Part shown: positions 24,973 through 56,744 of the stretch, piece by piece
How the letters are laid out: the number at the start of each line of letters is the position of its first letter
Numbering within the stretch: position 1 is the stretch's first letter
From: a virus
DNA length: 64,000 nucleotides
Virus record (IMG/VR): IMGVR_UViG_3300042880_000288
Span: 56,702-120,701 of that record
Direction: 5' to 3' (one strand)
Position numbers and translations under genes: made by a program
Notes under the pieces: model-generated
Databases searched by the model: none
The model's input: only the letters and a program-made list of their open reading frames with translations
Told to the model about the DNA's origin: nothing

Positions 24973-25251
24973 CATATCCAAATTGTCAGATAAATCAATG
25001 ATATCATCAAATGGTTGATCATCTGATATAATATCATTAAGGTCTTCATCATCCTGTGAGAGGAAATCAAAGTCATAATACTTATCTCTGGTGTTTCTAT
25101 CAACAGCAGAACCTGTAAATGGATCCCTAATGTGTTCACCATAGTCAATTGACATGAAGTATTGTACATCTTCATCTGTTAGATCAAGGTACTCTTCTAT
25201 AGAGAGGTGAATTACTTTCCCATTAGGGAGTTGATATTGCATTACCGGCAT
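24970..25251 (-). CDS. Acidic hypothetical protein, 93 aa
   Basis: Extremely acidic C-terminal half (YDFDFLSQDDEDLNDIISDD ... DLSDNLDM), with a small folded N-terminal part (YQLPNGKVIHLSIEEYLDLTDEDVQYF). The start may be at 25251 or at the in-frame ATG at 25242. DNA mimicry is a possible role of such acidic phage proteins, but nothing specific supports it. Confidence 0.7.
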   Translation of the reverse strand: MPVMQYQLPNGKVIHLSIEEYLDLTDEDVQYFMSIDYGEHIRDPFTGSAVDRNTRDKYYDFDFLSQDDEDLNDIISDDQPFDDIIDLSDNLDM

Positions 25252-25335
25252 AAATAAATATGCAGATAAATATAGAGCATTTATACTGAAGTCAATAGTT
25301 TAAACCAATAATATTTAGCACTATATAGCTAAACA

Positions 25336-25361
25336 AATAAAGAGGGGCACGAGACCCCTCT
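25336..25361 (-). terminator. Terminator after the 139-aa gene
   Basis: Minus-strand AGAGGGGTCTCG/CCCCTCT stem followed by TTTATTTG; it separates two small operons. Confidence 0.85.
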
Positions 25362-25401
25362 GTATTTTGGTCAGGAAAAGTATATTCACAGAATACACTT
25401 C

Positions 25402-25821
25402 TTAAAATTCTTCAAGAATTTCTAATTCATTAACTCTGGCATATGTAGTATCTACCTTAACATTTCCCTTATCATCAACACCTGTATATTCTACATGATA
25501 TTGTGAATACTCATGATAACCTCTGAAATCTTTAATAGTAACAATAATACAACCATCAGCATCAGCATACTTTTCTCTAGTAAGAGCTTTGTCCATACCA
25601 TAGCCAATAGTACTTACGGGCATTCTGCACAAAGTACCAATAGGTATTATATCTGGTAGTTTGTTACCTAACATAAGTTTAAAGAAATAATCTACTGTCT
25701 GAGAACTACTACAAATAATAGGAGTAAATAATTTTATAAACTCTTCAGAATTAGAATCTTTAATAATTTTACTTAATGCTTTTGCTACATCAGTATCATC
25801 ATAGTTTACAGATATTTTCAT
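25402..25821 (-). CDS. Hypothetical protein, 139 aa
   Basis: Not recognised. Helical start (VAKALSKIIKDSNSEEFIKLFTPII) followed by beta segments with DGCIIVTIKDFRGYHEYSQYHVEY. Last gene of the operon running from 27819; two bases separate it from the gene upstream. Confidence 0.7.
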   Translation of the reverse strand: MKISVNYDDTDVAKALSKIIKDSNSEEFIKLFTPIICSSSQTVDYFFKLMLGNKLPDIIPIGTLCRMPVSTIGYGMDKALTREKYADADGCIIVTIKDFRGYHEYSQYHVEYTGVDDKGNVKVDTTYARVNELEILEEF

Positions 25822-26102: not shown

Positions 26103-26367
26103 CCACCTTTTGTAACATTAATGTAGTCATAACAACTTCATTAGTATGTGTACATTCTTGAACTACTTTTACTAATGCAGTATGCATGTCATCACTTTCA
26201 TCAAATGCTTTAACACATGTTGCAAGGAGTATCTTTACTCTTTCATCAGAAATACCTAAGTTTTGATGTAATAATTCTGCTTTCTCATCAATAATGAGTA
26301 GTTTATACTGACCATCAGTATTATAACCTTTTTTCTTTTTCTTGAACATTTTTCCTAACCAGTTCAT
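26038..26367 (-). CDS. Hypothetical helical protein, 109 aa
   Basis: Starts MNWLGKMFKKKKKGYNTDG, a basic, amphipathic end that could touch the membrane, then three helices rich in Leu (EKAELLHQNLGISDERVKILL, MHTALVKVVQECTHTNEVVMT). Family not known. Confidence 0.7.
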   Translation of the reverse strand: MNWLGKMFKKKKKGYNTDGQYKLLIIDEKAELLHQNLGISDERVKILLATCVKAFDESDDMHTALVKVVQECTHTNEVVMTTLMLQKVVDKRNSHERLHNMLKDMFGRG

Positions 26368-26397
26368 AATTATAAATTTAAGTTAAACAATAAATAA

Positions 26398-26507
26398 TAG
26401 TCCCAACAGGATTCAAACCTGTGACCTGAACTTGATGTATTGCATGCCCTAACAGGCTATCCTTTACATTTTCAGAGGTTCCGCTCTATCAACTGAGCTA
26501 TGGGACT
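26398..26507 (-). tRNA. tRNA-like RNA with a 37-base enlarged anticodon region
   Basis: On the minus strand a 7-bp acceptor stem (AGTCCCA with TGGGACT), a D arm GCTCAGTTGATAGAGC, a variable loop AGGTC and a T arm ACAGG-TTTGAAT-CCTGT are present with normal spacing, followed by discriminator A; CCA is not encoded. The total is 110 bases, against about 73. The extra 37 bases are in the anticodon arm: GAAC/GTTC can form its base and ATGTA/TACAT plus GCC/GGC stems lie inside, so no ordinary seven-base anticodon loop exists. The tertiary pair G19-C56 is changed to A19-T56, a compensated change that argues for a folded, functional elbow. It may be an intron-bearing tRNA, a degenerate tRNA, or a tRNA mimic. 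Confidence 0.7.
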
Positions 26508-26513
26508 AACAAT

Positions 26514-26792
26514 TTAATAAGAATCTTCAGCTTTACCAAGACTTAACCAGTCTGCATCTTCTAAAATCCAAATCTCATCAATAAAACCATCTTTCAATGT
26601 GTACATAGTATTCCAAAACTCTAGTACTATGACTTCATCCTTTCTTTTAGTTACATTTACTAAAACATCATTTGTAATTTCTATTACATTCTTGACAAAC
26701 CTTTTCTCTGACCAAGTTAGATTGTTTGGTAATTTTTGAGAGTTACCAACTCCTGCAATCATAACTGCAATAATCATCATTAATTTTTTCAT
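26514..26792 (-). CDS. Secreted or periplasmic small protein, 92 aa
   Basis: A signal peptide is visible (MKKLMMIIAVMIAGVGNSQKLP, probable cut after GNS), followed by about 70 residues of a beta-rich mature part with WSEKRFVKNVIEITND and VLEFWNTMY. Export in the non-structural block suggests an envelope or superinfection role. It ends seven bases before the tRNA-like gene region. Family not recognised. Confidence 0.7.
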   Translation of the reverse strand: MKKLMMIIAVMIAGVGNSQKLPNNLTWSEKRFVKNVIEITNDVLVNVTKRKDEVIVLEFWNTMYTLKDGFIDEIWILEDADWLSLGKAEDSY

Positions 26793-27910: not shown

Positions 27911-29296
27911 TCATTCAGTTCCAATACAGGAATACCGTGCAGTGTCCACAGTATCAAGCATCAATTGAATGGGAGAATAAATCTCACCTTTCAATATACC
28001 CTTCAATACAGAAGGACTGAAGCCTGATACCAAACCAATGCCTGAATCATTAACAGATGCAGGAACATTACCAAGTCTACCGTTCACATTCCAAAATACT
28101 ATCTCAGGCATTTTATATCCTGCATCAGAATATTTTGCCCTAATAGAATCTAGGTTAGTAACACCTTGACATGCACTATCAAACTCCATATCACTAATGA
28201 TAAGAAGTTTAGTAGGCATCTCAGACTCAGGTAATGATTCTCTAATAGCACTATTAAGAATCAAGTCAAATGTGGCTTGAAGATTAGTAGAATAACCCCA
28301 GTCTGCTCTCTGTAACTGTCTCATTCTCTGTGACAAACTACCTGATAGGTAATTCATTTCAGGTCTCTCTGAGAAAGTCAAGAAAGCATCCTTGAATATA
28401 CCTTTATTTCTTTCAGAGATATAAATCCCTAAAGAAACAGATACATCCATAGGAAGACCTTCCATACTACCACTAACATCACATACAGGAATAATCCTTT
28501 CTGTACTATCAGCCATATAGTCTGGTAAAGCATCCCATTGAGCTTCTACTGCACTAGCATCATCTCCCTTTTTAATTGCTTGATACAATTGGTGAGGGAA
28601 TAATACTCCTGCATTAATCTTCTGTTTGCCATCTTGAACATCAGAAATATACTGCAAATATCTTTGACCATCACGGCTGATAAATGCATTTCTGTGTTTG
28701 TTCATAGCTACTGAAGGAACCTGACCATAACTGATCTTGTCCCATTCATTGGCACACATTTGAGTTTCCACTACTTTGGTCATTGACACAAGTTTCTTTC
28801 TGAACTCTTTAGGAGTTACATTAAGATACTTATGCATGGCACTAAACCATTTACCTTTTCTTGGAAACCATTTGGCTAAGAGGTTAGCATCAGGAGACTC
28901 TTCAAGTTGAGTATTTAACCAACTGAGATTATTCTCATTTGGATTCTCAATCTTGAATACATCCTTCCAATACCCAAACTTGGGTATATGTATAGCCAAT
29001 TGGTCATACTCATAAGCATTAGACTTACTAATATGTTCCATAACTATTTGGAAGAATCTTCTCTCACCTGCACCACCTCTTGCATCTCTTGACCAAAACA
29101 AGATCTTATAAGCTAAGTTCTTATTCTGACCAACAGCACGGTCAAAAGCAAGTATAATATCAGACTCTCTAATATTTCTACTTGCACCTGCTAGGAAGAA
29201 CAAATCAAGACAATAGTCTAAACTTGTTGAATGTGTAATAGCTCCATTAGCAGTTGTGGAGTTATACTGTCTTGTAGCATTTATTAATTTGCTCAT
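27911..29296 (-). CDS. DUF2828 (DUF7788) protein: helical repeats plus vWA, Ro60-like architecture
   Basis: The ATG at 29296 (MSKLINATRQYN) is chosen over 29347 because the longer start lies across a hairpin; 461 aa. The N-terminal two-thirds are helical and show the DUF2828 blocks LDLFFLAGASR, YKILFWSRDARGGAGERRFF, IPKFGYWKDVF and a PSVAMNKHRNAF segment. The C-terminal vWA domain has an intact MIDAS (VCDVSGSMEG), the Thr of STNLQATFDLIL and the Asp of ISDMEFDSA. The layout equals that of TROVE/Ro60 proteins, helical ring plus vWA, which bind non-coding Y RNAs. DUF2828 function itself is unknown. Upstream lie a 49-aa gene and a highly structured non-coding region. Confidence 0.88.
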   Translation of the reverse strand: MSKLINATRQYNSTTANGAITHSTSLDYCLDLFFLAGASRNIRESDIILAFDRAVGQNKNLAYKILFWSRDARGGAGERRFFQIVMEHISKSNAYEYDQLAIHIPKFGYWKDVFKIENPNENNLSWLNTQLEESPDANLLAKWFPRKGKWFSAMHKYLNVTPKEFRKKLVSMTKVVETQMCANEWDKISYGQVPSVAMNKHRNAFISRDGQRYLQYISDVQDGKQKINAGVLFPHQLYQAIKKGDDASAVEAQWDALPDYMADSTERIIPVCDVSGSMEGLPMDVSVSLGIYISERNKGIFKDAFLTFSERPEMNYLSGSLSQRMRQLQRADWGYSTNLQATFDLILNSAIRESLPESEMPTKLLIISDMEFDSACQGVTNLDSIRAKYSDAGYKMPEIVFWNVNGRLGNVPASVNDSGIGLVSGFSPSVLKGILKGEIYSPIQLMLDTVDTARYSCIGTE

Positions 29297-29331
29297 ATAT
29301 AAAAAGATTAATTGGTTACTAATTTGGTTTA

Positions 29332-29361
29332 GGTGTGTATCTAACAATACAGATACACACC
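29332..29361. other. Perfect 11-bp hairpin between the 49-aa gene and the DUF2828 gene
   Basis: GGTGTGTATCT and AGATACACACC are exactly complementary around an eight-base loop that contains the stop codon of the 49-aa gene. No T run follows on the minus strand, so it is probably an RNA processing site, a stability element or a translational control of the DUF2828 message. Confidence 0.7.
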
Positions 29362-29490
29362 ATTCTCTTTACCTTGAAACATTACTGTTTCACCTTTCTT
29401 TCTATAGCCAACAACTTGTTGAAACATATAGACTGGAACATCATACTCTAACTTATAGAATACATCTTTGAACTCTTTGAAAGTAATCAT
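29341..29490 (-). CDS. Small protein upstream of DUF2828, 49 aa
   Basis: ATG at 29490, TAG at 29341. Product MITFKEFKDVFYKLEYDVPV then MFQQVVGYRKKGETVMFQG. Its leader AACCAATTAATCTTTTTATATG is the same as that of the DUF2828 gene (copies at 29294-29315 and 29488-29509 on the plus strand), which supports translation. It may be an accessory subunit of the DUF2828 protein. Confidence 0.6.
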   Translation of the reverse strand: MITFKEFKDVFYKLEYDVPVYMFQQVVGYRKKGETVMFQGKENGVYLYC

Positions 29491-29561
29491 ATAAAAAGAT
29501 TAATTGGTTGTTATTTTAATTGTGGGAAGGCACCTGCCCCCTTTTCAAGAGGCAGGCTTGT

Positions 29562-29692
29562 GGTGCATAACAGAATACTATCTAAAACCTGCCTATCTAG
29601 TAGACAACAGAGTACCTTCCCGGGTTAAGTCCTATTAGGACTTTTTCTGTTATTTGTTGTTTTAGATTGTGTGCTGAAGTATTCTTTACACC
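29562..29692. ncRNA. Structured element 1 of 3
   Basis: Outer GGTG (29562-29565) pairs with CACC (29689-29692); AGAATACT (29572-29579) pairs with AGTATTCT (29678-29685); ATCTAAAAC (29580-29588) pairs with GTTTTAGAT (29659-29667). The 3' side carries a ten-base bulge TGTGTGCTGA just before the 8-bp arm. The loop is long and contains the terminator-like hairpin at 29629-29646. Confidence 0.65.
29629..29646 (+). terminator. Terminator-like hairpin on the plus strand inside the structured region
   Basis: AGTCC-TATT-AGGACT followed by TTTT. It fits a plus-strand terminator for a short RNA starting near 29520; no plus-strand promoter is clear. It may instead be an internal hairpin of element 1. 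Confidence 0.45.
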
Positions 29693-29700
29693 AAAATGAC

Positions 29701-29753
29701 GGGCTACTATTTTACTTTATCCTTATAAAAGTTTAATAGTGCTGAAGTAGCCC
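29701..29753. ncRNA. Structured element 2 of 3
   Basis: GGGCTACT (29701-29708) pairs with AGTAGCCC (29746-29753). Inside, ATT..ACTTT pairs with AAAGT..AAT. The 3' strand has an eight-base bulge AGTGCTGA immediately before the 8-bp arm, the same design and motif as element 1, while the arm sequence is different and still complementary. Confidence 0.7.
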
Positions 29754-29761
29754 TTAAAGAG

Positions 29762-29842
29762 TTGGTCTAGACAGAATACAGTTAACCAATTTATCTAATA
29801 TATGTAGAAGTTGATGTGCTGTATGTATTCTTTAAAGACCAA
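29762..29842. ncRNA. Structured element 3 of 3
   Basis: Outer TTGGTCT (29762-29768) pairs with AGACCAA (29836-29842); AGAATACA (29773-29780) pairs with TGTATTCT (29824-29831); CAATTT can pair with AAGTTG inside. The bulge ATGTGCTGTA before the 3' arm again carries GTGCTG. TTAA follows the arm as in elements 1 and 2. Confidence 0.7.
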
Positions 29843-29991
29843 TGTATGTTTAGCTATATTATATTTGTTATATATTAAGATATATAAAAGATAGTATATA
29901 GTTTAAGGTAAAGAAAGTATAGAAGGTTTAAGTATCCATTATACATACACTTATACCTATAACACTGTTTACACGCGTGAGGATTATACTT

Positions 29992-30050
29992 TCAGACCAC
30001 AATGTTATTCATACTATAACTTTTATAGTAATATTAACAGTGTCAGACCA
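29992..30050. ncRNA. Long hairpin flanked by TCAGACCA direct repeats
   Basis: TACTATAA (30012-30019) and TTATAGTA (30023-30030) form an 8-bp stem with a three-base loop, continued outward by TGTTA/TAACA and CAC/GTG. TCAGACCA occurs at 29992-29999 and 30043-30050 on either side. A competing pairing of ACACTGTT (29962-29969) with AACAGTGT (30036-30043) is also possible. Confidence 0.6.
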
Positions 30051-30065
30051 ACAATATAATCAAAT

Positions 30066-30083
30066 CAAGTTATGAGAGGTTTA
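30066..30083 (-). promoter_or_regulatory. Repeated leader element, copy 1 (structured-RNA unit)
   Basis: Plus-strand caagttatgagaggttta; one of eight copies at 30066-32308. This copy is not followed by a protein gene in its direction (minus) but by the structured non-coding region and the DUF2828 operon. Confidence 0.7.
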
Positions 30084-30132
30084 ATCAAAAGCTGTGAAAC
30101 ATATTAAAACCAAAAAGAATTAAACTGCACTC

Positions 30133-30169
30133 AAAAAAATAAAACCCTACACATCCCGTGTAAGGTTTT
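30133..30169 (-). terminator. Terminator of the 113-aa gene
   Basis: Minus-strand AAAACCTTACAC/GTGTAGGGTTTT stem followed by ATTTTTTT. Confidence 0.9.
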
Positions 30170-30185: not shown

Positions 30186-30527
30186 CTACACTGACATCTC
30201 TGTGATATCAGATAGAGAGAAGGAAGCAACTGTGTCAACAGTCCCCTTGTTGTGAACACACCAACCTTTAACAAGTAATCCTGTTTCAGGGTTAGTGCCT
30301 TCCAACCAAGAAACAACTAGGTCTCTTGCATTGGTTCCGTCAACCACATTGTCACCTTTGCTGTTCTCTACCTTTGAAGATAGAATTGCAGTGGTGCTTT
30401 TGCTGTCCTTAAATGCTACCCACATTGATTTGCCACTCTTGCTTTTATTGATGTCCAAATTTTGGGCACTAATAGATTGCATAAATGAAACTAAACTCTG
30501 TGTTTGGGAAAATGTTGTCTGTGACAT
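30186..30527 (-). CDS. Hypothetical protein, 113 aa, own transcription unit
   Basis: Not recognised. Ser/Thr-rich, with a helical start (QTQSLVSFMQSISAQNLDI), a beta-rich middle (GKSMWVAFKDSKSTTAILSSKV) and WLEGTNPETGLLVKGWCVHN. It has its own leader (copy at 30560-30576) and terminator. Probably an early host-interaction protein, by analogy with arrays of small early phage genes. Confidence 0.75.
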   Translation of the reverse strand: MSQTTFSQTQSLVSFMQSISAQNLDINKSKSGKSMWVAFKDSKSTTAILSSKVENSKGDNVVDGTNARDLVVSWLEGTNPETGLLVKGWCVHNKGTVDTVASFSLSDITEMSV

Positions 30528-30559
30528 ATAACATTAATTTAAGGGGTTAATAACTAAAA

Positions 30560-30576
30560 CAAGTTTTGAGAGGTTA
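30560..30576 (-). promoter_or_regulatory. Repeated leader element, copy 2 (113-aa gene)
   Basis: caagttttgagaggtta on the plus strand, 33 bases from the gene start. The same TTTTAATATGT...CAGCTTTT context upstream of it recurs at copy 1. Confidence 0.75.
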
Positions 30577-30588
30577 AAAATTAAAAGC

Positions 30589-30970: not shown

Positions 30971-30988
30971 AAAGTATTGAGAGGTTTT
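30971..30988 (-). promoter_or_regulatory. Repeated leader element, copy 3 (98-aa gene)
   Basis: aaagtattgagaggtttt on the plus strand, 24 bases from the ATG. Confidence 0.7.
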
Positions 30989-31015
30989 TAAAAAAAAGAA
31001 AAGGGCAACTGCCCT
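30989..31015 (-). terminator. Terminator of the 69-aa gene
   Basis: Minus-strand AGGGC-AGTT-GCCCT followed by TTTCTTTTTTTT; the stem starts at the stop codon. Confidence 0.85.
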
Positions 31016-31223: not shown

Positions 31224-31246
31224 CTTTTCAAAATTTAAAGTTAAAA

Positions 31247-31266
31247 CAAGTATTGAGAGGTTTAAA
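31247..31266 (-). promoter_or_regulatory. Repeated leader element, copy 4 (69-aa gene)
   Basis: acaagtattgagaggtttaa-type element on the plus strand, preceded towards the gene by tttaaagttaaa, as in most copies. Confidence 0.75.
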
Positions 31267-31469: not shown

Positions 31470-31487
31470 CTAGTTATGAGAGGTTTA
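31470..31487 (-). promoter_or_regulatory. Repeated leader element, copy 5 (55-aa gene)
   Basis: ctagttatgagaggttta on the plus strand with tttaaagttaaaa next to it. Confidence 0.75.
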
Positions 31488-31497
31488 ATTAAAAAAA

Positions 31498-56045: not shown

Positions 56046-56744
56046 ATGTTAAATAGTGTAATCACCATAAAGATCAAAGAAAGACTAAACAAATTGGATA
56101 GTCAAGATTATGACAACATTGAATGTTGGCAGATTGTTGAGTCTTTTAATAAAGCTCAGGTAGAGTGGTCTAGAAGGCAGTTACATGGTATTAACCTTAC
56201 TAAAGAAGGTGATGAAGGATCTACAAGAAGAAAAGATGATATGCAGATCCTTTTAGAAACCTTTAATATTAATATTGCTGACAAAGATTATTACTATGAT
56301 GGTTTGCTTCCAGAAGATTATCTTCAATGGAAAAGAGTAGATGTCTTTGCTCAAAAAGAATGTTGTGATAAAAGAAGAATGACTGTTTATCTTGCAGAAG
56401 AAGGAAACCTTAATCAACTTCTTAGAGATAAATCAAAACAACCTAACTTTGAATGGGCAGAAACATTTGCTACACTAAAAGGTGGTTATGTCAATGTTTA
56501 TACAAATGGTGAATTTAATATTCAGCAAGCTGATCTTATTTATTACAGACAACCAATAGCAATTCAAATTGCAAATTGTGTGGACCCATATACTGGCCTA
56601 GCATCTCCTGTAGATGTATTATGTGAGTTTAAAGATGATATAATAGAACTTATAATAGATGAAGCAGCTAGTATAATTGCTGGAGATATTGAATCAGGAA
56701 ATCAATTCTCTAGAGGTACAGAAGGTGCTGAAAGAAATAATTAA
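56046..56744 (+). CDS. Head-tail connector candidate, 232 aa
   Basis: Helical N-terminus NVE-type (IKERLNKLDSQDYDNIECWQ) followed by a beta-rich body (LPEDYLQWKRVDVFAQKECC, RRMTVYLAEEGNLNQLLRDK) and a C-terminal helix (LCEFKDDIIELIIDEAASII). This arrangement, and the position between head and tail genes, suits the adaptor or ring proteins of large podoviruses. No family identity can be proved here. Confidence 0.6.
   Translation: MLNSVITIKIKERLNKLDSQDYDNIECWQIVESFNKAQVEWSRRQLHGINLTKEGDEGSTRRKDDMQILLETFNINIADKDYYYDGLLPEDYLQWKRVDVFAQKECCDKRRMTVYLAEEGNLNQLLRDKSKQPNFEWAETFATLKGGYVNVYTNGEFNIQQADLIYYRQPIAIQIANCVDPYTGLASPVDVLCEFKDDIIELIIDEAASIIAGDIESGNQFSRGTEGAERNN

Follow-up and report, generated by a model that had tools for sequence, protein, structure and literature searches.

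Ro60 proteins and their Y RNAs are the closest described counterparts of the system treated here. In bacterial Y RNAs the stem bound by Ro carries the motif GNCGAA, and Y RNAs were reportedly found near Ro60 genes in bacteria and phages by Chen et al. in 2014; to our knowledge, what Ro60 does in bacteria other than Deinococcus is not settled. We analyzed a stretch of 64,000 nucleotides (nt) of viral DNA (IMG/VR record IMGVR_UViG_3300042880_000288, positions 56,702 to 120,701; hereafter the window), in which a gene for a DUF2828 protein lies beside structured RNA encoded on the same strand. With a probability of roughly 0.8, the locus encodes a phage Ro ribonucleoprotein, in which DUF2828 would be a Ro60-class ring protein and hairpins marked by the motif CAGCA would be its Y-like RNAs. 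The protein and the CAGCA RNAs are very probably partners, and we infer that the one binds the other. A preliminary description of this DNA had already drawn the comparison with Ro60 and Y RNAs; fold prediction and the association of the protein with the RNA motif support and extend it. Since dozens of unrelated phages have both the protein and the motif, the system looks like a widespread phage Ro60-Y RNA particle.

The idea of phage Y RNAs has been proposed before. In a 2025 study of Listeria phage CKA15, RNA sequencing revealed very abundant transcripts without annotation in the 2 kb upstream of its DUF2828 gene, and an Rsr with Y RNAs is proposed for CKA15_055 and its neighboring RNAs (PMC12282133). 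CKA15_055 is a DUF2828 orthologue, and a relative of this phage, Listeria phage A511, carries three CAGCA elements just before its DUF2828 gene; the corresponding array of CKA15 (OR088597) is at about 25,230-25,600. However, the accessible portions of the study name neither a motif nor a wider family and describe its RNAs without tRNA mimicry. Of the three transcribed regions only one has printed coordinates (26,236-26,727), and that one is not the CAGCA array but lies upstream of it. The open-access literature yielded no paper naming DUF2828 in phages, and neither the CAGCA signature nor its breadth nor the two tRNA permutations described below were found reported there.

The DUF2828 protein and its predicted fold

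The gene and the parts of its product are as follows (positions are those of the window):

27911-29296, minus strand: DUF2828/DUF7788 protein of 461 amino acids, an open reading frame (ORF) with an ATG start
residues ~28-255: N-terminal part of the DUF2828 protein, made of helical repeats
residues ~268-450: vWA domain of the same protein, with an intact metal ion-dependent adhesion site (MIDAS)

The 461-residue protein matched DUF7788 (4e-47) and DUF2828 (5e-31) in Pfam and also PHROG_850, annotated as 'RNA-binding protein' (2e-139). MIDAS residues D273, S275, S277, T337 and D369 were invariant or nearly so among 22 relatives from environmental phages. An AlphaFold model predicted from the alignment of 22 relatives had a mean local confidence (pLDDT) of 78 and a predicted TM-score (pTM) of 0.63. 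When this model was compared with the PDB using Foldseek, five Ro60/TROVE chains from four entries took ranks 1-5, ahead of any other fold, with E-values of 2.3e-9 for the Ro60 of Thermus phage phiLo, 3.8e-9 for a TROVE domain, 1.4e-7 for Deinococcus Rsr and 2.1e-5 for Xenopus Ro. The TROVE/Ro60 architecture that had been read from the letters alone, helical repeats plus a MIDAS-bearing vWA domain, was thus borne out by the Foldseek ranking and the conserved MIDAS residues, and DUF2828 is predicted to form a helical-repeat ring with a vWA domain in the Ro60/TROVE fold. The predicted likeness to Deinococcus Rsr (2NVO), Xenopus Ro (1YVR) and phiLo Ro60 (9L5Y) covers most of the protein, and the position of the gene beside structured RNAs is a further resemblance.

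Sequenced phage records with the DUF2828 protein number at least 673. The hosts of these phages include E. coli, Salmonella, Listeria, Staphylococcus and mycobacteria, and the protein is mostly annotated as hypothetical or RNA-binding. Its genes often lie near tRNA clusters or near genes for RNA ligase or tRNA processing.

CAGCA hairpins and their association with the gene

The RNA block of the window consists of three separate hairpins (E1, E2, and E3) that lie upstream of DUF2828 on the same strand and share one signature. The features of this region are:

29522-29693, minus strand: E1, a CAGCA hairpin AGAATACTTCAGCAC...AGTATTCTG inside an outer GGTG/CACC stem, with inner stems
29533-29556, minus strand: 3' hairpin of E1
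29615-29621 with 29524-29530, minus strand: predicted pseudoknot of E1, GGGAAGG pairing with CCTTCCC
29700-29753, minus strand: E2, hairpin GGGCTACTTCAGCAC...AGTAGCCCG
29762-29842, minus strand: E3, hairpin AGAATACATACAGCAC...TGTATTCTG inside an outer TTGGTCT/AGACCAA stem
29341-29490, minus strand: possible ORF of 49 amino acids between the RNA block and DUF2828
30133-30169, minus strand: terminator-like hairpin with a T run, which terminates the preceding gene (30186-30527) ahead of the RNA block

The signature emerged from the upstream sequences of 33 related loci; these and other DUF2828 loci are cited, where needed, by L numbers. It consists of a stem of 7-9 base pairs (bp) starting with AG (or AA/GG), 1-3 nt, CAGCA, a loop of any size, the returning stem, and a G. 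The offset of CAGCA from the outer pair is fixed at 9-10 nt, and the G directly follows the returning strand. Stem sequences vary among copies with pairing kept, and CAGCA is constant, apart from existing CCGCA and CTGCA variants. A stem that varies with its pairing preserved around a fixed CAGCA is the pattern expected of a protein-binding site.

Folding energies were compared with those of shuffled sequences. Positions 29510-29845 gave a z-score of -5.8 on the gene strand and -4.3 on the opposite strand; positions 29846-30130 gave an ordinary -1.7 and were set aside as part of the block. The structured character that the preliminary description had assigned to about 0.6 kb directly upstream of the gene was therefore confirmed, but for ~0.34 kb only, since 29846-30130 folds ordinarily, and the 49-residue ORF intervenes between block and gene. 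Among relatives whose records include an upstream flank, the closest (L002-L014) lack that ORF, and their block abuts the gene. In a homology alignment of E1 covering 15 relatives, both partners had changed in 17 of 45 pairs; shuffles gave 5.7 such pairs, and sliding the structure along the alignment gave 4-9. Pairing in the helix of the predicted E1 pseudoknot reached 98%, and L013 and L015 showed compensatory changes in it; RNAalifold prefers nested helices without the CAGCA stem for E1, and the pseudoknotted model was scored instead. The E2 stem reads AGGCTAC/GTAGCCT in relatives, a compensatory change. The covariance model R1, trained without E1 and E2 but with an identical copy of E3 from L001, reported only E1 (24.4 bits), E2 (33.1 bits), and E3 (50.4 bits) at E < 0.01 between 25 and 31 kb of the window. 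Rfam gave chance-level matches only in the block and a tRNA only across the window. The DNA of the block showed no similarity to annotated phages, which we attribute to the turnover of stem and loop sequences.

Within 1 kb of DUF2828 in 28 diverse loci, 48 signature hairpins lay on the gene strand and 1 on the opposite strand, compared with a mean of 0.43 in dinucleotide shuffles. These loci include annotated phages of Vibrio, Listeria, Salmonella, Staphylococcus, Mycobacterium, Cronobacter, Campylobacter, Stenotrophomonas, Enterococcus, Fusobacterium, Sinorhizobium, Synechococcus, Serratia, and Aeromonas. In the same loci, other letter orders of CAGCA gave few or no hairpins, overlapping frames excepted. 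When copies were chosen by CAGCA alone, 51 of 73 non-coding, same-strand copies had a stem of 7 bp or more in register, compared with 1 of 6 on the opposite strand; when all 5-mers were allowed at that offset, CAGCA was the commonest by far (64), followed by its overlapping frames. A covariation count on a set of 25 hairpin sequences was not used as proof, because the hairpins had been picked for complementarity and the count was circular; the strand, shuffle, motif, and held-out tests replace it.

Searched against whole records, R1 matched 21 of 21 DUF2828 phages, 10 of which had contributed no training sequence, and none of eight control phages (T4, SPO1, K, phiKZ, G, ICP1, crAss001, and 121Q). 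The controls lack DUF2828, except for a weak profile match in crAss001 (E 0.001), where the TROVE protein matches the DUF2828 alignment. The crAss001 genome is without a CAGCA element, which suggests that phage Ro proteins of the TROVE type may use other RNAs than those of the DUF2828 type. Among 77 further DUF2828 loci, R1 made 52 matches, all on the gene strand; among 80 control loci around a phage DNA polymerase gene, it made none. A pattern descriptor gave 70 versus 1 matches by strand in the 77 loci, as opposed to 6 versus 3 in the polymerase loci. A further 20 whole DUF2828 records were searched, and 17 matched at E <= 0.1. The RNA motif thus accompanies DUF2828 in related phages, occurring in every one of the 21 records and beside most held-out genes.

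Such counts bear on whether the hairpins belong instead to a repeat family of tRNA clusters, or are DNA elements of recombination, packaging or mobility that travel with the gene. Many copies do lie in or near tRNA clusters. They are also present at DUF2828 loci without detected tRNA (L019, L024, and L048), they are absent from the control phages without DUF2828, including T4 and SPO1, and strand biases of 48 to 1 and 52 to 0, covarying stems and permuted tRNA cores indicate RNA; we consider this explanation very unlikely.

The position of the elements was not constant. In the 77 loci they lay upstream of the gene in 26, downstream in 23, and on both sides in only 2. They are downstream in mycobacteriophage, Staphylococcus, and Felix-O1-type phages, 7 kb away in KVP40, and 200 kb away in Serratia phage BF, where they sit in a tRNA cluster. 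Placement upstream, downstream or at a distance speaks against a simple regulator in the 5' untranslated region of the DUF2828 mRNA, a cis-acting structure through which the protein or another factor would control DUF2828 synthesis or stability, as does the presence of several copies with different loops. Such a role would suit E1, which has the most elaborate conserved structure and is fixed at 180-190 nt upstream of the gene, on the same strand, in relatives of the window lineage. On balance, we regard it as improbable.

Loop contents and tRNA mimicry

What the stems enclose differs from copy to copy: a plain loop, a pseudoknotted domain (E1) or, in other phages, a circularly permuted tRNA. 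In the permuted form the CAGCA stem holds, in order, a T arm, an acceptor stem with a short closing loop, and a D arm, followed by the returning Y-stem. This order was found in the Felix-O1-type phage Mushroom, mycobacteriophage Rumpelstiltskin, Enterococcus phage Ben, Sinorhizobium phage phiM19, Cronobacter phage S13, and environmental phages, and the pattern had no match on either strand of 1.2 Mb of control loci. The reverse permutation occurs in Cronobacter phage S13 and Aeromonas phage Ahp1, where the normal tRNA order is kept and a short-looped Y-stem replaces the anticodon arm. Each arrangement is a circular permutation of the same shape, which suggests that the combined fold matters. 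In phage Ben (L043 7200-7770), four Y-like RNAs stand in tandem, each after a similar leader of ~55 nt with its own hairpin.

The variable loops could also hold seed regions, and the hairpins might then be small RNAs that pair with mRNAs of the host or the phage, DUF2828 serving as their chaperone. The authors of the CKA15 study first considered its abundant RNAs regulatory (PMC12282133). Loops that are tRNA mimics in several phages, rather than unstructured seeds, and the highly structured E1 with its predicted pseudoknot make this a poor fit, and there is little chance that it is correct.

YrlA RNAs (RF02553) resemble the phage RNAs in having a conserved, putative protein-binding stem and a variable module, in being encoded beside a Ro60-class gene and, for one or more RNAs of several DUF2828 phages, in the permuted tRNA module. 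They differ in that the phage stems carry CAGCA, not GNCGAA, that most phage copies are simple hairpins, and that the reverse permutation also occurs. The Rfam YrlA model gave sub-threshold matches on permuted-tRNA elements, the best in phage Ben (47.8 bits, E 7.6e-11); none of 8 records exceeded the cut-off of 69 bits, and the genome of the window had no YrlA match. Control genomes also gave tRNA-like matches to this model, none of them above the cut-off. Upstream of DUF2828, GNCGAA showed no strand excess (26 versus 23).

The window has one tRNA-like candidate for a Y module of its own, which is ambiguous:

26398-26507, minus strand: tRNA-like RNA of 110 nt (Rfam tRNA, 48 bits over 110 nt)

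A tRNA-like RNA on the strand of the DUF2828 gene had been predicted earlier, and the Rfam match places it here. The analogy drawn at the same time with the tRNA modules of YrlA is strong for the permuted tRNAs of relatives and weak for this RNA. Its acceptor, D, and T arms are intact and its anticodon arm is enlarged by ~36 nt; ARAGORN made no call at this position. The enlarged arm ends in CCTG-TT-AGGG followed by TGCAAT, a short likeness, judged by eye, to the tRNA-order RNAs of S13 and Ahp1. The RNA is thus possibly a tRNA-order Y-like RNA. There is an even chance that it is instead an ordinary tRNA that contains an intron or a small insertion and has no connection with DUF2828: the three arms are intact, and relatives (L003, L005, L008, L009, and L012) have a tRNA of normal length nearby, whereas the enlarged arm, by its short resemblance to the S13 and Ahp1 RNAs, points the other way. 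Either outcome leaves E1-E3 unaffected.

A candidate phage Ro ribonucleoprotein

In the particle that we propose, DUF2828 would bind the part of the RNA formed by the AG stem and CAGCA, much like Ro60 on the conserved Y RNA stem. Variable loops and tRNA mimics may gate the DUF2828 ring or tether it to a partner, for which tRNA-handling enzymes or a nuclease of the host, PNPase for example, are candidates. The likely task would be to handle RNA that is structured or damaged in the course of infection, with the tRNA pool a plausible target because many DUF2828 genes sit in phage tRNA clusters; a role directed at tRNA is a tentative suggestion. The CKA15 study reports the DUF2828 protein CKA15_055 in purified virions (20 peptides, 57% coverage), so that the protein may enter with the injected genome (PMC12282133).

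Several observations weigh against a Ro ribonucleoprotein. TM-scores of the model to Ro60/TROVE chains were 0.40-0.53, and its confidence was moderate (pTM 0.63). Unlike Ro60 and Rsr, the protein is accompanied by an RNA stem that bears CAGCA and is assigned to Pfam DUF2828/DUF7788, with TROVE not among its Pfam matches; it is too distant for sequence searches of the PDB, in which phmmer and hmmsearch returned no Ro60 chain. Three of the 20 further DUF2828 records were without an R1 match and several others were weak. None of E1-E3 contains a permuted tRNA, GNCGAA does not occur in the RNA block of the window, and RtcB was searched for in this genome and not found.

We also considered a separate, phage-borne Ro-Y class with its own RNA recognition code, common to phages whose hosts differ widely, in which tRNA mimics of both permutations would serve to handle, shield or repair the tRNA pool during infection, one option being that they act as decoys for anticodon nucleases of the host; this is somewhat unlikely. 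For the phage Ro ribonucleoprotein, the CAGCA signature supplies a testable partner for DUF2828 and a means of finding its RNAs by search. The natural variants, from plain hairpin and pseudoknot to tRNA mimics in two permutations, should help to work out the function of Ro-Y particles, and some of these phages lend themselves to work in laboratory strains.

Other RNA features were noted near DUF2828 genes. The region L036 6490-7060 of A511, equivalent to CKA15 26,236-26,727, was checked as the source of the abundant transcript of CKA15 and contains no CAGCA element. It spans ~0.5 kb, is unannotated, has no Rfam match, and, according to the CKA15 study, is among the most transcribed regions of that phage; we regard it as a further phage RNA. 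In the window, a recurrent sequence near AACCTCTCANNACTTG precedes several small minus-strand genes and is possibly a phage promoter or leader; sites of this kind include 30066-30084, 30556-30580, 30976-30990, 31245-31265, and 31470-31490. Upstream of DUF2828 in L002, L003, L004, L006, L008, and L031, two or three more recurrent structured units (ACCACAAGGTTTCAGGC...GACTTGTGGT, CTCTCATCCAAGCAGG...CTTGTGAGAG, and CAGTTGTAAT...ATTACAACTGAGTGCAGAGG) accompany the CAGCA hairpins. ARAGORN reported a tmRNA near DUF2828 in Stenotrophomonas phage DLP6 (L042 16770-17113) and in Synechococcus phage BUCT-ZZ01 (L046 3713-4131). Finally, a Pistol self-cleaving ribozyme (Rfam, 42.8 bits) lies ~0.8 kb upstream of DUF2828 at L013 5116-5184, plus strand, where it perhaps trims a Y-like transcript.
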